In this document: positions 21,115-50,559 of the stretch, piece after piece
Layout: each line of letters starts with the position of its first letter
How positions within the stretch are numbered: position 1 is the first letter of the stretch
Assembly: GCA_014871385.1 (NCBI GenBank)
Contig: CM026431.1
Span: 13,297,594-13,361,593, forward strand
DNA from: Ceratodon purpureus
Taxonomy: Eukaryota > Streptophyta > Bryopsida > Pseudoditrichales > Ditrichaceae
DNA length: 64,000 bases
Direction of reading: 5' to 3'
The notes under the pieces: generated by a model
The model's database searches: none
What the model saw: only the letters and a program-made list of their open reading frames with translations
What the model was told of the DNA's origin: nothing
Program-made: the position numbers and the translations under genes

Positions 21115-21137
21115 GTCGCTGTCACGGACATACATTA

Positions 21138-21247
21138 GAAACTTCTAGAAGATTCTTCTAGAAGTTTCTTTGAAGATTCTATAGAATATTCTTAAAAGAT
21201 TCCTTCAAGATTCTATTGGAAACTTCTAGAAGATTCTTAGAATATTC
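21138..21247 (+). promoter_or_regulatory. Heat-shock element cluster in the LTR
   Basis: GAAacTTCtaGAAgaTTC at 21138-21155 is four alternating nGAAn units in perfect register. It is followed by TTCtaGAAgtTTC (21156-21168), GAAgaTTC (21172), GAAtaTTC (21184), a second GAAacTTCtaGAAgaTTC (21219-21236) and GAAtaTTC (21240). Three units are normally enough to bind trimeric heat-shock factor. All lie 115-225 bp upstream of the TATA box. The same cluster is in the 3' LTR at +5692. Confidence 0.8.
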
Positions 21248-21362
21248 TTAGTATATTCCAATAGATTCTAGGAAGCTGCTTGAGAAGCTTCTTGGTTAGT
21301 AGAAGTTGTTTGAGAAGCGTCCTAGTTGGCAGAAGTAGCTCGAGAAGCTTCCTATCCAGTAG

Positions 21363-21395
21363 TATATATAAGAGTCGAGGCTAAAGGGTTCTTCA
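21363..21395 (+). promoter_or_regulatory. LTR core promoter: TATA box and predicted start site
   Basis: TATATATAAG at 21363-21372. The A at 21395 is 32 bp from the first T of the box, a usual distance for a plant Pol II start. It is also the first base of the 11-nt stretch complementary to the primer-binding site. Confidence 0.75.
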
Positions 21396-21536
21396 GTCTC
21401 GACAACGCATCTCTTGGAGCTCTAGCTCACCTCTCTTGGTGTTGTTCGTATACTCATCTGATCAATCTAGTTCTTGTCTGTTTTCTCTGAACTTCTTGTT
21501 TAGATCTCTTGTCTGTATTTCCGTGTCCGTAACAGT

Positions 21537-21547
21537 TTGTCGAGACT
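21537..21547 (+). promoter_or_regulatory. Self-primer binding site
   Basis: TTGTCGAGACT begins two bases after the 5' LTR. Its exact reverse complement, AGTCTCGACAA, is at 21395-21405, at the predicted mRNA 5' end; the match ends on both sides there. Tf1 and sushi elements prime reverse transcription with the first 11 nt of their own mRNA folded onto such a site. No initiator-Met tRNA match (TGGTATCAGAG) adjoins the LTR; a weak ATATCAGAG occurs 27 bp into the leader. Confidence 0.75.
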
Positions 21548-21561
21548 AACTTCATCTCAAA

Positions 21562-21781
21562 TATCAGAGTTGGATCCTTCTTGCTTGAGAGTGGATTACC
21601 CCTCTTCTTGAAGGTATTCTAGCGTTTTAGGGGTTGCGGATTACCCTCCTCTAAACTGATATTTTTTTTTAATTACAATATCGGAGCTTAGTTCTTCAAG
21701 GCAGAGAGTGGACTACCCCTTTTTCTTGAAGATACTTAAGCGTTCCAAGGGTTGCGGATTACCCTCCCTTGGCCTGGTATT
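21562..21781 (+). repeat. Imperfect tandem duplication in the leader
   Basis: Two copies of about 100 bp (21562-21662 and 21679-21781) share ATATC(A/G)GAG, GAGAGTGGA(T/C)TACCCCT, CTTGAAG and GGGTTGCGGATTACCCTCC in the same order. They lie between the primer site and gag and may serve RNA packaging or translation. Confidence 0.75.
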
Positions 21782-21896
21782 AATTTCTTCGTTCTTTAGT
21801 ATTTAGTGAGATCATTTAGTATTTTCTATTCTCTTTTCTCCAAGGATTTAGTAGTTTCTTCTTCTCTCAACAATTCTATCCATCCATTTCCTTAAT

Positions 21897-22796
21897 ATGG
21901 AAGTAAATCAGGCCATGGATAGTGCATCGCCACAAATAGAGAATAGAGTGGCAACTCTTGCAGATCTTCAAGCTCTTATGAATAGTGTGCGGGAGGAGAT
22001 TGCATTTCTTCGCAATCCAAGTAAAGATTCTCAAATTAATCCAGTGACTGAAGAAGCTAGACGTGAAATTCACAGCCTACAACAAGAGCTTGTTCGATTA
22101 AGAGAAACAAGACATGTATCACCTACGACCCTGATGGACAATTCAAGGACTAGTACAAAAGAACCAAAAGCAAGTATGCCAGACAAGTTTGATGGAACAA
22201 GAACCAATTTCCGAGGTTTTGTGCAACAAGTACGACTTTATCTACGCCTATATCCTTCTCGTTATCCAGATGGATTTACTCAAGTTGCGTTCATAGGTAC
22301 TCTTTTATCAGGAAATGCTCGCTCTTGGTTTGCTCCGTTATTGAAAAAGGATTCTCCAATACTGTACAACGTAGAGGCTTTTATGGAAAGATTTACCGTT
22401 GCGTTTGGAGATAGCGATCGAGAAGGAGTGGCTGAAAGAAAGATACAAAATCTGCGACAAGGATCACGTTCTGCTGCAATCTATGCGGCAGAATTCCAAC
22501 AACTTACTTGTAATCTTGATTGGAACGATAAGGCGTTCATGACACGATTTCGTTATGGACTGAGAGATGATGTCAAGAACTTGTTGATCACTATGCCTAA
22601 GGTGAATACTTTAGAAGAACTTATATCTCAGGCAATTATTTGTGACAACCGCCTTTTTGAATTACGACAAGAAAAACGATCAGGCTGGAGGAATGATGGA
22701 GCATTTGCTGCATTTTCAAAAGGTCAAGAAAATCGCTCTACAGGTGCTGAACCTATGCAAATTGATGCGGAAAACGAGGACGCCCAGCCACAATAG
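21897..22796 (+). CDS. gag: gag (element 1)
   Basis: 299 residues from the ATG at 21897 to TAG at 22794. An N-terminal helical region (about 25-75, heptad-like EEIAFLRN, EIHSLQQELVRLRE) is followed by the retrotransposon gag core: KFDGTRTNFRGFVQQVRLYL near 100-120, GNARSWFAPLL near 140-150, and FGDSDREGVAERKIQNLRQG near 175-195. It ends in GAEPMQID, which in relatives precedes a CCHC zinc knuckle. No knuckle is present; Cys and His traces appear in other frames around 22765-22815, so it may have been lost. The product assembles virus-like particles. Pol follows in the -1 frame. Confidence 0.92.
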   Translation: MEVNQAMDSASPQIENRVATLADLQALMNSVREEIAFLRNPSKDSQINPVTEEARREIHSLQQELVRLRETRHVSPTTLMDNSRTSTKEPKASMPDKFDGTRTNFRGFVQQVRLYLRLYPSRYPDGFTQVAFIGTLLSGNARSWFAPLLKKDSPILYNVEAFMERFTVAFGDSDREGVAERKIQNLRQGSRSAAIYAAEFQQLTCNLDWNDKAFMTRFRYGLRDDVKNLLITMPKVNTLEELISQAIICDNRLFELRQEKRSGWRNDGAFAAFSKGQENRSTGAEPMQIDAENEDAQPQ

Positions 22797-25700
22797 GGAC
22801 TGTGCGGCTGGACATCTCAACATCCAAAATTAATCCAGGTCCCTTTCTCTCAGCTCAACCTTCAGATTGTTTTATGCTACCTTTACATCTTGGTATTCAA
22901 GAACTACAAGCCGATGCTTTATTAGACTCGGGTGCATCCGCTTGCTTTATAGATGAAGAGTTTACCAAGCTTCACAATATTCCTCTTGTGAAAAAACCAA
23001 AGCCTGTCCATGTAGAAGTCATAGACGGACGACCATTGTCTTCAGGCAATGTTATCCATGAAACCAAACCGTTGAAGGTACGTCTTGAAAACCATGAGAG
23101 CAACATTGTGTTTAATGTTATCAAGACCCCTTCATGTCCTGTCATTTTGGGACTATCTTGGCTTGCTAGATATAATCCATTAATAGATTGGAAGTTGCGG
23201 AAAGTGACATTTCCAACAAACTCCTTGAAGGTAGAATTTGCCAAGACAATGTCTAGAAATAAACCTTTGTTTATAGGTGCAAGAGCTTTTATGAAGGAAG
23301 CCAAACACAATACACCTCTTGTCATCTTTGCAACTCCGACTTATCAAGATGCGACTCCAACTTTTGGTATTCCGAAGCAGTATGAAGGATTCGAAGATGT
23401 CTTTGAAAAGAAGAATGCTGACATGCTGCCAGAACATCGACCCTACGACTGTGCTATAGACCTTCATGAAGAAATGCAACCACCTTTTGGACCAATCTAC
23501 AACTTATCGCAAACAGAGTTGGCAGAATTGCGGAAGTACATTGACGAAAATCTAGCCAAGAATTTTATTCGTCACTCAAAGTCGCCAGCTGGAGCACCGA
23601 TCTTGTTCGTGAAGAAGAAGGATGGCTCTCTGCGGATGTGCGTGGACTATCGAGGACTCAATAAGGTAACTAAGAAAAATCGTTATCCGTTACCTTTGAT
23701 TTCTGGTCTTTTGGAGCAGCTTGGGCGTGCAAAGATCTTTACGAAAATTGATCTGAGGGGAGCTTACAACCTTGTACGAATCAAGGAAGGAGACGAGTGG
23801 AAGACAGCTTTCCGTACAAGGTATGGTCATTTTGAGTACAATGTCATGCCCTTTGGTCTTACCAATGCTCCGGCTGTTTTTCAACATATGATGAATGACA
23901 TCTTTCGGGAGTACCTTGACGACTTTGTTGTCATCTATCTGGATGACATTCTGATATTTTCGAAGAACGAAGAAGAGCACAAGAAGCATGTTCGTTTGGT
24001 CCTTGAGAAACTACGAGAACGAGGACTCTACGCCAAGTTGGAAAAATGTCTATTCCACCAAACCGAGATGGAGTTTCTAGGGTTCATTGCAACTACAGAT
24101 GGTTTGAAGATGGACCCGAAGAAGGTGGAAGCAATTGTATCCTAGGACGTTCCGAAGACGGTTAGAGACGTGCAATGTTTTCTTGGCTTTGCTAACTTCT
24201 ATCGGATCTTCATCAAGAATTATTCTCGAATAGCTGCTCCACTCACTCGGTTGACTTGTATGGACAAGCTTGAATGGGGACCTCAAGCAGAAAAGGCATT
24301 CCAAGATCTTAAGACGACGTTTACTATGGCTCCGATCTTGGTACACCCTGACTTTGCAAAGGCCTTCTATTTGGAGACCGATGCTTCTGATTTTGCTTTG
24401 GGAGCTGTACTTTCACAGATGAACGTAGACGGTAAGCTCCATCCAGTTGCTTTTTATTCTCGGAAGTTCTCTGCCGCTGAAATCAACTGCGAAATCTACG
24501 ATAAGGAACTCCTTGCTATAGTGGATTCTTTCCAAGAGTGGCGACACTTTCTCGAAGGCGCTGCGCATCCGGTGACCGTATATACGGATCACAAGAATTT
24601 GGAGTACTTCATGTCGGCTCGAGTCCTGAATCGACGTCAAGCTCGGTGGAATATGTCGCTGTCACGATTTGACTTTGTTATTTTCTATCGGCCTGGGAAG
24701 CAACAAGGACTATCCGATGCATTATCGAGGAGATCATATCTCGTGCCTAAGGCTAGAGAAGCAGCGTTTGATCAACAATGCGTCACATTGTTGAAACCGG
24801 AGCATTTTAGAATTCGCGCTGCTGTCGTGCCAATTGATGCAGACTTCCTCAACCAGATACGTACTGCGACAATTGAAGATTCTGTAGCTCTTGAGATCAA
24901 GAAGCGTGCTGATAATGACAAGTTCAAGACGGAGGGAGATCTTTTGTACTTTGAAGAGCGACTATATATTCCGAAAGGACCAACACGACTTCGAGTTCTC
25001 CAATCTCGCCACGACTTTCCTGCAGCAGGTCATTTTGGATACAACAAGACATTAGAGCTTATTTCACGAGATTTTTGGTGGCCCCAAATGTGGAAAGATG
25101 TAAAAGAGTTTGTGATCTCTTGTGATATTTGTTCAAGGTCCAAGAATCCTCGGCATCGCCCCTATGGACTTCTGCAGCCATTACCTATTCCGCATCGACC
25201 ATGGTCTTCAGTCTCCATGGACTTCATTACGGACCTGCCGCTTTCAAACTCGTTTGACAGCATCCTTGTTGTAGTGGATCGGCTTACAAAGATGGCGCAC
25301 TTTATTCCCTGCAAGAAGACATCGTCAAGTGAAGACACAGCAAGATTCTTTCTTGATAATATATATCGTTATCATGGTTTGCCAGATGATATTATATCGG
25401 ATCGAGGAACTCAGTTTGTTTCCAAGTTCTGGAAATCTCTTTTTGAGATATTAAAGGTGGATATCAAGCTTTCTTCGGCTTTTCATCCTCAAACCGACGG
25501 TCAGACAGAACGGGTGAATCAAGTCTTAGAGCAGTATCTACGTTGCACCATCAACTATCAGCAAGACGATTGGATCGAGTATCTACCGTTTGCCGAGTTT
25601 GCCTACAACAACACCCTTCATGCGTCGACTCAACAAACACCGTTTTTTGCCAATTATGGATACCATCCAAAACTCGATTTGTTGAATCCAGTGGCCAATA

Positions 25701-26272
25701 ACAACCCGGCAGCAGAAGGCTTTGCGAAGCAGCTATCAGAACTTCAAGCTACGTTGAGATTTCAATTACAATCTGCTCAAGAATCTTACAAAGCGGCCGC
25801 AGATAAATTTCGGAATAAGGCACCTATTTTCAAGATTGGAGCTAAAGTATGGCTTCTTCGACGGAATATTCAGACTAAACGACCGTGTGATAAATTGGAC
25901 TACCGCAGATTAGGACCATTTGTTGTCCAGAAGCAAATCAATCCCGTGGCTTACCGTCTGGAATTACCAGCCGCTATGAAGGTACATCCAGTCTTTCATG
26001 TTTCTTTATTGGAGCCTTATCGAGAATCGTCTTTTCCTGGAAGAGTGCAAAATCCGCCACCTAGCATTGAAATTGAGAACCACGAGGAATACGAGGTCGA
26101 AAAGGTGCTAGATTCACGACGAAGGTGGGGCAAGTTGGAGTATCTTGTTCATTGGTACGGCTATGATATTAATGAGCGAACGTGGGAGCCAGCCGAAAAT
26201 CTTGCTAATGCACCGCAAAAGGTACAGGAATTTCATCAACAATATCCTGATAAACCGAAGCCATCTCGATGA
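22766..26272 (+). pseudogene. pol: pol (PR-RT-RNase H-INT-chromodomain), interrupted by one amber codon
   Basis: Open in the -1 frame from 22766 to TGA at 26270-26272, except TAG at 24143-24145. Before it: protease with ALLDSGAS (Asp near 22925) and RT with [17 protein letters not shown] and catalytic YLDD near 23935-23946. After it, in the same frame: RNase H (LETDASDFALGAVLSQ); integrase with an HHCC finger (RHDFPAAGH to CDIC), VSMDFITDLP, IISDRGTQF and GQTERVNQVLEQ supplying D, D and E; and a C-terminal chromodomain (YEVEKVLDS, LEYLVHWYGYDINERTWEP). The amber falls between RT and RNase H. Either this copy is defective, or the codon is read through; I favour defective. Confidence 0.9.
22769..22811 (+). 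promoter_or_regulatory. Putative -1 ribosomal frameshift signal, gag to pol
   Basis: The gag and pol frames are both open only from 22766 to 22793. The heptamer G-GAA-AAC at 22769-22775 (gag phase) lies there. After an 8-nt spacer comes a stem, CCAGCC (22784-22789) with GGCTGG (22806-22811), extended by ACA/TGT. Shift site, spacer and stem are placed as in known -1 signals. The A-site codon re-pairs perfectly and the P-site codon with one G-U, so the heptamer is near-canonical. Confidence 0.6.
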
Positions 26273-26304
26273 TAGCTTATTTCTCAAGTTTCTCCAGACA
26301 TTAG

Positions 26305-26313
26305 TATAAAAGG
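26305..26313 (+). promoter_or_regulatory. Possible internal TATA box before ORF3
   Basis: TATAAAAGG lies 33 bp after the pol stop and 103 bp before the ORF3 ATG. It is a perfect plant TATA consensus followed by purines, and could drive a separate ORF3 mRNA. Confidence 0.45.
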
Positions 26314-26407
26314 AGGGGAGAACGCTACCAAAACTCATAGTTGATGTTATTATTTTCTGTAAGCTAGAGTAGAGTTTATCCGAGTAGTCATAGTTTGGTC
26401 TACAGTC

Positions 26408-26761
26408 ATGGATAGTCAAGAGTTAGATACTATGCCAGTCATGTCATCTCAACCAACGAATTCACGTAGGCGATCCCGAGATGAAGAACCGCCTGTACCA
26501 CGACGACGACGGAGGATACCAAGCAACCGATCGCTGGTGATTGTATTCGAGGTGGAGCCTGCTTTCAATGGTCTACCAGAAGGAGTGTTTGCTGGACAAT
26601 TTCACAATGAAGACACGGAAGTTCATGCTTGGTCAGAAGTGGAAGGCGTAGGCCACTACCGTTGGCTTCAAGGACCAATGAACCACCTACCTCGTGAACA
26701 ACAATTGGAGTTCATTGTAGACGTGATGCGACAAATCTTCATTTTTCTACGATGGTATTGA
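26408..26761 (+). CDS. ORF3: small basic protein between pol and the 3' LTR
   Basis: 117 residues from an ATG at 26408 to TGA at 26759. Residues 18-38 are strongly basic (SRRRSRDEEPP, PRRRRRIPSNR), a probable bipartite nuclear signal. The rest is a compact, Trp-containing acidic region (EPAFNGLPEG, VHAWSEVEG, RWLQGPMN) ending in a helical tail. There is no signal peptide or membrane segment, so it is not an envelope protein. The family is not recognised. It lies in the position where some gypsy elements carry extra genes. Its intact frame in such a young copy suggests it is used. Confidence 0.65.
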   Translation: MDSQELDTMPVMSSQPTNSRRRSRDEEPPVPRRRRRIPSNRSLVIVFEVEPAFNGLPEGVFAGQFHNEDTEVHAWSEVEGVGHYRWLQGPMNHLPREQQLEFIVDVMRQIFIFLRWY

Positions 26762-26797
26762 CCGGCAGCAAAACTGCTTCTCGGAGACCTCGAAGCT

Positions 26798-26811
26798 AGA
26801 AGGGGAGGTGA
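26798..26811 (+). promoter_or_regulatory. Polypurine tract (element 1)
   Basis: AGAAGGGGAGGTGA directly precedes the 3' LTR, the usual primer site for plus-strand DNA. Confidence 0.8.
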
Positions 26812-27226
26812 TGTCACGGACATACATTAGAAACTTCTAGAAGATTCTTCTAGAAGTTTCTTTGAAGATTCTATAGAATATTCTTAAAAGATTCCTTCAA
26901 GATTCTATTGGAAACTTCTAGAAGATTCTTAGAATATTCTTAGTATATTCCAATAGATTCTAGGAAGCTGCTTGAGAAGCTTCTTGGTTAGTAGAAGTTG
27001 TTTGAGAAGCGTCCTAGTTGGCAGAAGTAGCTCGAGAAGCTTCCTATCCAGTAGTATATATAAGAGTCGAGGCTAAAGGGTTCTTCAGTCTCGACAACGC
27101 ATCTCTTGGAGCTCTAGCTCACCTCTCTTGGTGTTGTTCGTATACTCATCTGATCAATCTAGTTCTTGTCTGTTTTCTCTGAACTTCTTGTTTAGATCTC
27201 TTGTCTGTATTTCCGTGTCCGTAACA
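26812..27226 (+). repeat. 3' LTR
   Basis: Same length as the 5' LTR (415 bp) and no difference found by eye. Preceded by a purine-rich tract and followed by the GTCGC duplication. Confidence 0.97.
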
Positions 27227-27231
27227 GTCGC

Positions 27232-44145: not shown

Positions 44146-44535
44146 ATGAAGACTAAAGCATTGACAGATGCTGAAAAAGGACAAGTGGTTGGAATGCACA
44201 GAGCTAGAAGCGAAGGTGTGGAGATAGCAAGAGAATTAGGCATGTCCTCTTCCACTGTTTATGGTGTTGTAAAAAGTTTAAAAAACAACTTTAAAAACTT
44301 TTAAAAACTTTACCAAAGCCATCGGGTAGGCCTCAAATATTGATAGTACGTGACATGAGACTGTTAGAATGCCTCGTTAAAAAAGATTGCCATAGACCAC
44401 TCACAGAAATTACAAATGAAATGACATGTACTATAAAGATTAGTCTTTGTACTCTAAGGAACTCTTTGCAAACTCTTGGTTACAGAAGGCATGATGCGGC
44501 AAAAAAACCTTTTATCAGTGAGAAGCATAAGAAAT
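44146..44535 (+). pseudogene. Tc1/mariner transposase, N-terminal part
   Basis: ATG at 44146. The first HTH region reads MKTKALTDAEKGQVVGMHRA then GVEIARELGMSSSTVYGVVK. A linker with GRPQI and a second HTH region (CHRPLTEITNEM, RRHDAAKKPF) follow, ending SEKHKK. The frame changes near 44300 in an A/T-rich repeat. The gene is then split by an LTR element and continues at 50565. Confidence 0.85.
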
Positions 44536-45279
44536 TCTAACAAACCTCCCAACAGGTTTGCTACCAACTCTCAAACAAAAAGACAAATAAGACAAGGGAA
44601 AGATAAAAACTCAATAGAACTACAAAGATCAAAATATATTGACTGAAGGCTCACCACCCAACCATAGAGAAGTGATCACCAGAGAAGTGTCTCACCATCT
44701 CACCCCCAAGCCTTTATATATGAGTTTCTTCCCAAAAGGAACTACAGTCTATCTTAGGCTATGCCCCAGAGTCTAGCCTATTCATAGATCATTCTATCTC
44801 CTTTACTCCTATATCTGGAGTAAAGGTAATCCACAAATCCTTCTAGGTTCTTCTATGTCTTCAACTCAGAGACTCTTCTAGATCTTTCCATCTTCTTTAC
44901 TCCTATATTTGGAGTAAAGATAATCCATAGATCATTCTAGATCCTTCTATCTCTTTAACTCAGAGACTCTTCTAGATCTTTACTCCTATATCTAGAGTAA
45001 AGCTAATTCACTACTCTCAGTAGTCTAATTCTAGTGTACCTCATCTTGAGTTGTCTAACTCTTGTACACATGTTCTCAATCTTGGAGTGGTCTGATTCCA
45101 ATGCACTAAATATAGAGTTGTCTAACTCCAGTGCACATGTTCTCAATCTGGAGTTGTCTGACTCCGGTCCATCCATCCTCAACTGGGAGTTGTCTGACTC
45201 CTTTCATCCTCTGCTTACACACTGTCCAATGTGATTAGAAGATTTCATTCATCCATCTATTAATGTAAGTTACCTTACA
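44536..45279 (-). repeat. 3' LTR of element 2
   Basis: 744 bp, nearly identical to 49816-50559. Carries iterated short palindromes: CTTTACTCC-N7-GGAGTAAAG at 44801, 44895 and (one change) 44978, and GGAGT-N6-ACTCC-like units at 45047-45200. Confidence 0.95.
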
Positions 45280-45295
45280 ATCCTCCCCTTCCATT
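45280..45295 (-). promoter_or_regulatory. Polypurine tract of element 2
   Basis: Minus strand AATGGAAGGGGAGGAT abuts the TGTAAGG start of the 3' LTR and overlaps the pol stop codon. Confidence 0.75.
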
Positions 45296-48200
45296 AAAAG
45301 TCATTGTCCTCAATGACAAAGTCAGGATAATCCCTTCTGAAATCCACTTCTCTCTCCCAAGAAGCTTCTTCTTCCGGATAATCCTTCCACTTCACATAGA
45401 ATCTACGGAATGTCTTATTCCTCAGATGCTGATTCTCCACCTTCAAAATCTTCTCAGGTTGAGCAAGTAGTTCTCCCTCAGGAGCAGTTTTTGGAAGATC
45501 AGGCAAAACATAACTAGGATCAGATACATACTTCCTCAACAAACTCACATGAAATACATCATGTATCTGCCAATCCTCAGGCAACCTCAGTTTATAAGCA
45601 ACTTGTCCTATTCTCTCAATAATTTCAAAAGGACCACAAAACCGAGGTGATAACTTCCTTGACTTACCAAGCTTGAGTCCAGATCTTTTTGGAGCTACCT
45701 TCAAAAATACTTTATCACCCACTTCAAATTCACGAAAGATTCTTTTTCTATCAGCATAGTGTTTAGCTCTATCTTGAGCACTCTTCATAGCCAACTCTGC
45801 CAACTCTCTAATTTCATTCATTTCTTTAATCATTTCATTAATGCTTTCAAATCTAGTAGTAGGAGTAGAGAGTGTTATAGGAGTTCTACATTCTTGACCA
45901 TATAAAACATAGAATGGACTTACCCCAATACTACTATGAATATGATCATTGTAAGCAAATTCAATCAAATGCAACCACTTATCCCATGAGTGTTGTTTCT
46001 TACCAACATACATTCTCAACATATCTTCAAGAGTCCTGTTAGTTCTTTCAGTCTGTCCATCACTCTCATGATGATACGCAGTAGTCAACTTAATTTTGGT
46101 CCCACACAATTTGAAAAGTGTGGTCCAAAATTCACTCACAAACTTACGATCTCTATCACTTATAATCTCACGCGGAATTCCATGGTGTTTGAAGATCTCT
46201 CTCATAAATAACTCAGCTACCCCATAAGTAGTTACAGTAGTAACTGTAGGAATAAAATGAGCTATCTTAGTGAGTCTATCTACAACCACCATGATGCTAT
46301 CAAAGTTACTTCGAGTCTTAGGCAATCCAACAATAAAATCCATACTGACCGATTCAAATTTCAAGTTAGGAACACTAAGAGGTTGCAACAATCCAGGGCT
46401 CTTCACTTGTTCAGACTTAAAGACTTGACATTTCAAACATCTTTCAACATATTCTTTGACATCCTTTTTCATTCCTGGCCAGTAATAATGACGCTTGACT
46501 GCCATATAGGTCTTTTGAAAACCTGGATGGCCTGCTATTGGAATATCATGAAGGTTATTCATAATATTGAGTCTATATTCCCCAGCCTTGGGAATACAGA
46601 CTCTGCCATTATAATATAAAACTTCATCTTTCAATTCAAAAGATTTAAACCTATCGATTTCATTCACAGTTCTAGCTTCCTTAGATAGACTTTCAAATGG
46701 AATTTTAAAGAAATCATCATTAGGATAAAGAAATTTGATTTCATCCATCAAAGAATTTCTGATGCATGAAATAGCATTTGCTAGCGGTCTTCTAGAAAGA
46801 GCATCAGCCACCACATTTTCCTTACCTTTAACATATTCAATTTCAAAATCAAACTCTTGTAACAATTCCATCCACCTACACTGCCTTCTACTCAAATTCG
46901 ATTGGGTTAATAAATATTTCAAAGACAGGTGATCGGTTTCTATCTTAAACCTGACTCCTAGTAAATAATGCCTCCAAACCTTCAAAGAATGAATGACTGC
47001 TAGTAGTTCCTTCTCGTGTACTGGATAATTTAACTCAGCGGAATTCAATTTACGAGATTCATATGCAACTATCTTTCTATCTTGCATCAAAACTGCACCA
47101 ATAGCTAAATCGCTAGCGTCGGTACACAATATTATGTTTCCTTTCAAGGGATCCATAATAGTCAAAACAGGAGTTTGGGTTAATACTGACTTCAAAGTCT
47201 GAAAACTCAAGTCACACTCAGCAGTCCAATCTATTTGATTACCCTTTCCTTTCAACAAATTGGTCATAGGAGCAGCTATTTTAGAAAATCCTTTGACAAA
47301 TCTTCTATAATAGCTTGCAAGACCTAGGAAACTTCTCACTTCACTCTTGTCTTTTGGTATTGGCCACTCAGCAACTACTTTGACCTTCCTAGGATCTACC
47401 GAGATTCCCTCATCAGAAACGAAGTGACCAAGAAATTCAATACGAGATGTAAAGAAATCACACTTACTTAGCTTAGCATATAACTTATTCGCTCTCAGAA
47501 TTTCAAAAACTTGTTTAAGATGTTTCTTATGTTCTTCTACATTTTTAGAATATATAAGAATATCATCCATGAATACTAACACAAATTTACCCAAAAGATC
47601 ACGAAATAAGGAATTCATCAAAGTCATAAACGTAGCAGGAGCATTTGTCAGTCCAAAAGGCATTACAACATACTCGTAATGACCTAAACGCGATCTGAGC
47701 CTGTTTACGGAATGTCAGACTCTTTAATTCGAATTTGATGATAACCACTCTTCAAATCTATCTTAGAAAATATTTTTGATCCATGTAAGTGATCAAAAAT
47801 ATCATCAACACGGGGCAACGGAAACCTATTCTTGACAGTGAGTTTATTAAGACCACGATAATCTACACATAATCTTAATGATCCATCTTTCTTCTTAACA
47901 AAGAGGACCGGGGCACCCCAAGGTGATTTGCTAGGTCTAATGTAACCTTTGTTCAACAAATCTTTCAATTGATTCTCCAACTCAACATTTTGAGTTAGAG
48001 AATGACGATAGGGTGCCCTAGCAATAGGAGCGGCATCAACAATTAAATCTATAGCGTGATCAACATCTCTCCTAGGTGGCAATTCCGTCAACTCTTCAGG
48101 AAATATATCTTTAAATTCATCCAAGAATTCATTCATTCTTTTATTATCCTTACTTTCATCCTCAACTTCACTCACATGTATTAGAAATACTTCGTGGTTT

Positions 48201-49798
48201 TTCCTAATACATCGTTTCATTTGTAAATGAAAAAGCATAGGGACCCTTGGTGAAGATCTCTTACCTCTTATGGTGAAAGATTCCCCGTTGTGAAGCTTTC
48301 CATGGTCTGCTCCCTCCTTGCATGCAATCCATGCGTCCACTTGCTTCAGCCACGCCATCCCCAATATCACCTCATATCGTGCTCCATTCCAAACTTCAAA
48401 GTCCACCTCAGTATCTACACCTTGAATGTTCACAGGAACCTTCAACATGCGGTGAGTGATAGAACTAGTTTGGTTGTTTGGTAACAAAACTGAGCAAGGT
48501 TTGATAGGAACTAGGGAAAGTCCTATCTTGTGAGCAAATGAAGTTGATATCATATTATGAGTGCTACCAGAATCAATAAGAATCATAGAAGAGAAGGAAG
48601 AGTTCAGAAAGCCTTTGATTTGGAGCACCGTTGGATCTTGCTCCACTTCCATGTTCATAATAGCAGCTGAGACAGTTGGGACAACATCCTTGCTTGGCTC
48701 TCCATCAGATGTATCTTCATCTCCTTGCTCCACCTCCAAAGCTGTTGTCTTCCTTTTAGATGATAGACACTCAAAGCTTCGATGTCCAGGCTTATGACAC
48801 CTAAAGCAAAGACCTTTCTTCACATGCTCCTCCTGCTCTTCTTTGCTCAACATGGCACCCCTCTGTCCTGGATTGAACTTGGAACCTTGAGAGGGATTAG
48901 AACCTTGAGAGAACTTTGAAGACTTAAAGTTATTAGACCGATTGAACTCAGAGGACCTCTTTCCCAACAGACTCTTGTTCTTCTCTAACTTGCTATTAAC
49001 ATCTCTCTCCAAGTTCAAAGCCAAACCATAAGCATCATCTAGAGTCCTTGGATGATATGCATTGACTTTAAATCTGATTGAATCCTTTAAGTTACGAAGA
49101 AAGAGCTCAACCCTATCACTTTCACTCCAATTGGGAAAATAGACAATATGTAAATCAAACTTTGACTTGTATTGGGTTACAGACAAACTTCCCTGTTTCA
49201 AATCATAGAGCCCTTGGCGCATGTCTTCTCCGTAATTCCCAGGAAGGAATTCTTGAAGAAACAAGTGCTTGAAGGTGCTCCAATTTGACAGAGGTTGAAG
49301 TCCACGATCCTCCGGGTCGTTCTTGAAATTATCGTACCACACACGAGCTTTGTCTTGAAGACAAATCACCATAGCCTTGATCTTGTCATCATCTTGGTAA
49401 TCTGAAGTGAAGAAGTCCTCCAGCATGGAAATAAAAGACTTGACCTCCTCCGCTTTGCAGTTCCTTCCCCCAAAAGAAGGCTTGAAAGGATACTTCCTCA
49501 AGTCCTTCAAAACATCAACTCTTCTAGGACGAGGACCCCTCAACGTAGATGTTGCAACAGACTCTATCTCTCTTGACCTAACAGGTAAAGATGAAAGAGG
49601 GTGAGGAGTGTCTGAACGAACACCTTTGGGAAGAGGTGGAGCTCCAGATTGTACACAATCCCCTCTAGAAAGAAGATGAGCTCCAGATTGAACACAATCC
49701 AAAATTTCCCTCATGGCTCCCATCACTCCTCTCATAATCCTCTCTTCTACACCCTGAAAAGGATCAACTCTTCCTTCCAAACCCTGCAGAGGATCCAT
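45294..49798 (-). pseudogene. gag-pol: gag-pol of element 2, broken within RT
   Basis: 49798-47705 encodes gag (core about 95-265), a CCHC knuckle at residues 331-344 ([14 protein letters not shown]), protease with [10 protein letters not shown] (Asp 409) and the start of RT ([19 protein letters not shown]). It hits TAA after IKESDIP near 47705. A one-base deletion follows, and RT resumes in another frame at about 47663 ([21 protein letters not shown]). RNase H ([16 protein letters not shown]), integrase ([52 protein letters not shown]) and a divergent chromodomain ([20 protein letters not shown]) follow to 45294. All domains are present, so one small lesion separates this copy from its family. 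Confidence 0.92.
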
Positions 49799-49801
49799 AC
49801 T

Positions 49802-49814
49802 GCTCTAATACCAA
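49802..49814 (-). promoter_or_regulatory. Primer-binding site of element 2
   Basis: On the minus strand the LTR is followed by AT, then TGGTATTAGAGCA, which differs at one base from the initiator-Met tRNA 3' complement (TGGTATCAGAGC). Confidence 0.75.
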
Positions 49815-49815
49815 T

Positions 49816-50559
49816 TGTAACAAACCTCCCAATAGGTTTGCCACCAACTCTCAAACAAAAAGACAAATAAGACAAGGGAAAGATAAAAACTCAATAGAAC
49901 TACAAAGATCAAAATATATTGACTGAAGGCTCACCACCCAACCATAGAGAAGTGATCACCAGAGAAGTGTCTCACCATCTCACCCCCAAGCCTTTATATA
50001 TGAGTTTCTTCCCAAAAGGAACTACAGTCTATCTTAGGCTATGCCCCAGAGTCTAGCCTATTCATAGATCATTCTATCTCCTTTACTCCTATATCTGGAG
50101 TAAAGGTAATCCACAAATCCTTCTAGGTTCTTCTATGTCTTCAACTCAGAGACTCTTCTAGATCTTTCCATCTTCTTTACTCCTATATTTGGAGTAAAGA
50201 TAATCCATAGATCATTCTAGATCCTTCTATCTCTTTAACTCAGAGACTCTTCTAGATCTTTACTCCTATATCTAGAGTAAAGCTAATTCACTACTCTCAG
50301 TAGTCTAATTCTAGTGTACCTCATCTTGAGTTGTCTAACTCTTGTACACATGTTCTCAATCTTGGAGTGGTCTGATTCCAATGCACTAAATATAGAGTTG
50401 TCTAACTCCAGTGCACATGTTCTCAATCTGGAGTTGTCTGACTCCGGTCCATCCATCCTCAACTGGGAGTTGTCTGACTCCTTTCATCCTCTGCTTACAC
50501 ACTGTCCAATGTGATTAGAAGATTTCATTCATCCATCTATCAATGTAAGTTACCTTATA
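49816..50559 (-). repeat. 5' LTR of element 2
   Basis: Same 744-bp length as the other LTR; differences are scattered transitions near the ends. Inner end TGTAACAAACC. Contains TTTATATATGAG (plus strand, near 49993) in the promoter region and the same palindromes as the 3' LTR. Confidence 0.95.

Follow-up and report, generated by a model that had tools for sequence, protein, structure and literature searches.

The LTR retrotransposon at 21120-27226 on the + strand of the window (the whole 64-kb stretch of Ceratodon purpureus DNA analysed here) very probably primes its own reverse transcription, with an RNA that starts at 21395 and whose first 11 nucleotides act as the primer. Self-priming as such is a kind of priming already known, and what is added here is a set of compensated changes at primer and priming site among related elements, together with a hairpin across the presumed start site. 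By analogy with Tf1, transcription would start at 21395, the first 11 nucleotides of the RNA would pair back with the site immediately beyond the 5' LTR, and RNase H would cut between nucleotides 11 and 12 to give an 11-nt RNA primer for minus-strand DNA. In the resulting minus-strand strong-stop product, the RNA 5' end AGUCUCGACAA would be followed by cDNA that begins immediately before the site. Since the primer itself can be the source from which the primer-binding site is rewritten in a new DNA copy, an exact match between the two would be needed for this cycle and would at the same time be its footprint.

The element is a complete insertion, with a pair of identical LTRs and a target-site duplication, and its features are collected in Table 1. 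The 3' LTR carries a second copy of the primer at 27087-27097. The window copy is defective in both gag and pol: its pol is broken by one in-frame TAG at 24143-24145, and its gag (21897-22796) has no CCHC zinc knuckle. Of 28 host-genome copies, 24 have a CCHC motif in a forward frame downstream of the priming site, and the public protein P0001 (1156 aa), whose integrase and chromodomain part is identical to that of the window element, has no stop in pol, so that copies with an uninterrupted pol exist. In view of the missing knuckle, the pol stop and the identical LTRs, the window copy may have been moved by the proteins of another copy. Between pol and the 3' LTR lies an ORF of 117 aa (26408-26761) with a TATAAAAGGAGGGG stretch upstream of it at 26305; it has no Pfam match and no tblastn match in the 27 related loci described below. 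The leader between the priming site and gag contains a 70-nt direct repeat (21599-21668 and 21717-21786) whose two units are 76% alike.

Table 1. Features of the retrotransposon, with positions in the window.
Feature	Position	Strand	Basis and remarks
Target-site duplication GTCGC	21115..21119 (left); 27227-27231 (right)	+	sequence; 5 bp
5' LTR	21120..21534	+	415 bp, TG...CA; self-comparison
TATA box TATATATAA	21363..21371	+	sequence and scan; 32 nt above presumed start
Start-site hairpin	21374..21403; again in 3' LTR, 27066-27095	+	fold; 5' arm in U3, 3' arm is primer nt 1-9
Presumed RNA nt 1-11, putative self-primer AGTCTCGACAA	21395..21405	+	exact complement of 21537-21547
Spacer GT between LTR and site	21535..21536	+	sequence; two bases
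Putative self primer-binding site TTGTCGAGACT	21537..21547	+	complementarity, fold, shuffles, scan of relatives
gag	21897..22796	+	Pfam Retrotrans_gag and DUF4939; PEG10 match
Presumed -1 frameshift heptamer GGAAAAC	22769..22775	+	shortly before gag stop
pol: protease, RT, RNase H, integrase, chromodomain	22802..26272	+	-1 frame to gag
Chromodomain, C-terminal on integrase	26090..26239	+	Pfam Chromo PF00385, 1.4e-15; aromatic-cage Y, W, Y
Polypurine tract GAAGGGGAGGTGA	26799..26811	+	by eye; adjoins 3' LTR
3' LTR	26812..27226	+	415 bp, TG...CA; 100% identical to 5' LTR

The preliminary description of this DNA had proposed an exact 11-nt complementarity between the LTR and the sequence just past it, a partner placed where the RNA should begin, and no tRNA site next to the LTR, and all three are borne out. 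TTGTCGAGACT occurs only once on the + strand of the 64-kb window, two bases past the 5' LTR, and AGTCTCGACAA is its exact complement over 11 nt. The TATA box TATATATAA starts at 21363, which puts it 32 nt above position 21395, an A preceded by C, and it is from the position of this box that the 5' end of the RNA is placed at 21395. Priming by a full-length tRNA, whose end is CCA, calls for a site that starts with TGG, and no TGG is found within 30 nt after the LTR end at 21534. When the LTR was shuffled with its dinucleotides kept, an exact complement of at least 11 nt starting 0-5 nt past the LTR arose in 6 of 5000 shuffles, and such a match is given by 29 of 9078 overlapping 415-nt stretches of the window's real DNA; both counts leave aside the further demand that the partner lie 32 nt below a TATA box. 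Folding of the RNA leader, suggested at the outset as a check, gave the same pair: for 21395-21560 the structure of lowest energy (-36.1 kcal/mol, z -2.5, with 5 of 200 shuffles equally good) pairs exactly the 11 nt of primer and site, and the primer/site duplex is the closing helix of this predicted fold.

Genome contigs were scanned for relatives with an alignment of related sequences, which gave 27 loci (L001-L027). All of these belong to public metagenome-assembled genomes that bear the names of bacteria or archaea, where the chromovirus contigs are presumably eukaryotic contamination; searches of viral contigs and a phage search returned no relatives. The 28 sequences formed by the window element and the 27 loci were scanned for a joint arrangement in which two exact arms of at least 10 nt lie 60-600 nt apart, a TATA box precedes the first of them by 29-35 nt, and CA stands 1-3 nt before the site. 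The arrangement is present in 8 of 28 sequences (the window element, L002, L003, L005, L006, L007, L018 and L025), compared with 0 of 28 on the reverse strand and a mean of 0.25 per set over 40 shuffled sets. In all eight the site begins two bases past CA, the LTR end being known from paired LTRs in the window element and the CA before the site standing in for it in the other seven. A single metagenome bin is the source of six of the eight, which are related to each other, and four primer sequences occur among the eight, each with its own matching site. AGTCTCGACAA is shared by the window element and L007, which are 94% alike over the matched part of pol, and AAGGCGAACAA is found in L003, L005, L006 and L025. 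The primer of L018, AAGGTGAACAA, has one base changed, with the change compensated in the site, and that of L002, ACTCTTGATCAA, is 12 nt long.

Divergence of the two stretches without compensation, named earlier as a finding that would speak against self-priming, was looked for in these related copies; the eight have exact pairs with four primers. In L001 the primer/site pair is mismatched at two positions; the LTRs at the ends of this locus are of two different versions, and the copy is mixed or decayed. L008 has an exact 11-nt pair with the site after GACAGT, its arms only 61 nt apart and no TATA box above. L023, a distant relative, has an exact 14-nt pair (L023 7267-7410, across overlapping contig ends) with the site after GACAATT, arms 130 nt apart and no TATA box, and it is a further candidate for self-priming. 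By the strict joint criterion 20 of the 28 sequences have no pair, a figure that covers contigs for which the presence of the leader is established only in the case of L001, L008 and L023; the 17 loci other than these three and the eight have no such pair at a recognisable LTR end, and some of them have pairs elsewhere. A looser scan of the window and its left flank, with arms of at least 9 nt and a wider TATA range, gave five matches besides the element itself, none at a recognised LTR, and this criterion was dropped. An RT tree of 73 rows was also built from 45 of 81 proteins (those with an RT long enough), the window element, the half RT of a second element in the window and 26 of the 27 loci (L003 being too short); it is of no use for counting origins of self-priming, as most of its rows are proteins without DNA. 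No named chromovirus is among the rows.

The 362-Mb host assembly was searched at the DNA level, which gave at least 41 matches, and the best 40 of 151 candidates were scored. At least 28 host loci, the window's own included, extend past the priming site, and these leader copies are 98-100% alike over 248-261 nt; from this similarity the family looks young. The primer at 21395-21405 is identical in 30 of 30 host LTRs examined, the window LTR included, and the priming site is exact in 27 of 28 host copies, again with the window included, the one remaining copy having a C-to-T change that leaves a G-U pair. The host copies are too alike for covariation to be tested among them. When the host was searched with the leader of L007, the 40 matches listed brought up this family once more, and a pattern for the other primer family gave 11 matches in the host genome against 18 for a control, which is background, with the joint arrangement in 0 of the 11.

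The 11-nt match could in principle be due to chance or be a leftover, with a tRNA fragment or half-molecule tRNA priming at the same place. A match of this length somewhere in 415 nt is not vanishingly rare, as the 29 of 9078 overlapping window stretches indicate, and the use of half-tRNAs is known in some plant elements (PMC6317226). In the accessible text of that source, however, half-tRNA priming in plants is reported only for Ty1/copia lineages, and no TGG lies within 30 nt past the LTR; moreover, an exact pair at a fixed place in eight sequences, with four primers, is to be set against 0.25 expected, and we regard this explanation as scarcely credible. A role of the duplex in packaging, dimerisation or translation, for which it would be real and selected while priming proceeds otherwise, is only slightly less improbable. 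Such a role would suit the predicted fold, in which this duplex encloses the entire leader, but the pair lies at the place of priming, 2 nt past CA in 8 of 8 sequences, the pair in the window element has the 11-nt length of that in Tf1, and no alternative priming site is seen adjoining the LTR. Self-priming of the Tf1/sushi type, the reading proposed in the preliminary description, is supported by the exactness of the pair, its rarity in shuffles, the predicted fold, the four covarying primers and the exact site in 27 of 28 host copies.

Next to the priming helix, a duplex with the LTR end is predicted at -11.5 to -15.0 kcal/mol at +16/+17 in L002, L003, L005, L006 and L018; it is weaker in L025 (-8.3) and doubtful in the window element (-7.6 at +47) and in L007 (-4.4). 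The third duplex of the Tf1 'pretzel' has no consistent counterpart among the eight self-priming sequences, and the full three-duplex structure is thus not confirmed for the window element, for which the central duplex is predicted. The heptamer GGAAAAC or GGGAAAC, out of 11 heptamers looked for, stands at an equal distance before the gag stop in 8 of 8 self-priming sequences, with the stop 24 nt from its second base and pol open in the -1 frame, and is the presumed site of a -1 gag/pol frameshift; in L012, L014 and L021 heptamers are found at other distances from the gag stop. A -1 frameshift is described as usual in the Tf1/sushi group outside the fission yeasts in the accessible part of PMC10085805.

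Apart from L002, each of the eight self-priming sequences (7 of 8) has a hairpin in which nucleotides 1-9 of the primer are the 3' arm, the 5' arm being a stretch of U3 immediately above the start. The hairpin of the window element has a predicted energy of -16.1 kcal/mol (z -5.1, none of 200 shuffles folding as well), compared with -22.5 in L007 and -14.5 to -21.2 in L003, L005, L006, L018 and L025; z ranges from -4.0 to -7.2. The 3' LTR end of L001 also has the hairpin (-19.2), that of L023 is shorter and differs in geometry (-10.1, z -2.5; matched by 5 of 200 shuffles), and folding of L002 (z +1.0) and L008 (z +0.9) gave none. The U3 arm reads GUCGAGGCU in the window element and GUUCGCCUU in the AAGGCGAACAA loci, and the changed base of L018 is matched in the U3 arm as well as in the site, so that this arm covaries with primer and site. 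Among 30 host LTRs, 27 agree in all 24 nt above the start; of the three variants, one falls in the loop, one is a G-U that keeps the pairing and one weakens the hairpin to -12.7 kcal/mol.

The RNA 5' end would start past the U3 arm, and the copy of the primer in the 3' LTR has that arm. For this reason we tentatively propose, as a possibility with the odds against it, that the covarying U3 arm is a third partner of the primer in self-priming elements of two or more lineages, and that the hairpin would lock the 3' LTR copy and leave the 5'-terminal copy free, as a way of choosing the right one. There is about an even chance that the hairpin is instead a core-promoter palindrome acting at the DNA level, or that it joins the RNA ends; in sequence, either would be indistinguishable from masking. 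It sits over the presumed start, and in the window element the U3 arm resembles the primer-binding site in 8 of 9 letters by eye, so that the arm at the RNA 3' end could also base-pair with the 5' primer; on the other hand, the compensation of the L018 change in the U3 arm and the site alike fits pairing of RNA or of DNA. A limited literature search that did not extend to the original Tf1 and sushi papers returned no description of a start-site hairpin, which is possibly new.

By its traits the window element may be filed as a young Ty3/gypsy chromovirus, a Tcn1-type member of the Tf1/sushi group, on account of an aromatic-cage chromodomain, a PEG10-like Gag, gag and pol in -1 frame with a heptamer, and a site complementary to the inferred RNA 5' end. 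Of two PDB matches to gag at E up to 1, only that to PEG10 (E 3.5e-11) is convincing; we take PEG10 to be a sushi-class protein. The chromodomain is of group I, its cage residues Y, W and Y aligning with the CDYL and HP1-type chromodomains; cage residues of this kind are named in the available text of PMC3350952, and the methyl-lysine cage is kept in 95% of Tcn1 elements according to that of Neumann et al. 2019 (PMC6317226). A tRNA-Met or other tRNA site adjoining the LTR, the trait of the tRNA-primed plant chromoviruses Galadriel, Tekay, Reina and CRM, is absent after 21534. A second chromovirus in the window (44533-50557, minus strand), with LTRs of about 745 bp that are 99.5% alike, has the priming site TGGTATTAGAGC, which by eye matches at 11 of 12 positions what we take to be the end of tRNA-iMet, and its longest self-complement there is 6 nt; with this ordinary tRNA-iMet-like site it provides a contrast to the element at 21120-27226.

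The preliminary description had treated self-priming as unusual for a plant, a view that is outdated: the accessible text of Neumann et al. 2019 (PMC6317226) already predicts it for most Tcn1-clade chromoviruses of moss and club-moss, which have no tRNA site, and likewise for the TAR lineage of Ty1/copia, and a 2023 paper (PMC10085805) restates, in the part available, the occurrence of the group in non-seed plants. For SM-Tcn1 of Selaginella, signs of neither tRNA priming nor self-priming are given in the available part of Novikova et al. 2010 (PMC2864245). The window element shares with the Tcn1 clade of plant chromoviruses the aromatic-cage chromodomain, the predicted self-priming, the lack of a tRNA site and hosts among the mosses and club-mosses, whereas the start-site hairpin and the compensated changes of the present set were not found described for that clade in the literature accessible to us. 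Tcn1 of Cryptococcus has been proposed to self-prime like Tf1, in which the first 11 bases are the primer and the cut falls between bases 11 and 12 (both from the accessible text of PMC7175516). Tf1 of Schizosaccharomyces pombe and the window element have in common the complementarity of the first 11 nt of the RNA to a site past the LTR, but Tf1, as far as the sources available describe it, has one ORF and no CCHC in Gag, whereas the family in the window has gag and pol in -1 frame and CCHC in 24 of 28 host copies; the biochemistry of self-priming has been shown for Tf1. With the sushi-ichi or PEG10-type elements of vertebrates it shares a PEG10-related Gag (the sequence compared being PEG10), a chromodomain and the -1 frame, and differs in host. 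Self-priming has also been proposed, in the sources accessible, for Houba, Osr-1 and the TAR lineage of plant Ty1/copia elements, but these belong to another superfamily.

Self-priming of plant Tcn1 elements has so far been a prediction in the literature accessible to us, and the compensated changes in several relatives make it more solid. If the start-site hairpin masks the second copy of the primer, it would answer the question of how a self-priming RNA with two primer copies uses only one. The metagenome bin named 'Trichormus' may hold DNA of the fern Azolla, as one Trichormus species is named azollae; a literature search yielded no link between the sequencing run and Azolla. If the bin does contain fern DNA, the range of self-priming elements of this kind, given in 2019 as mosses and club-mosses, would widen to include ferns. 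An apparently young family in Ceratodon purpureus could allow a direct test of the mechanism in a plant.
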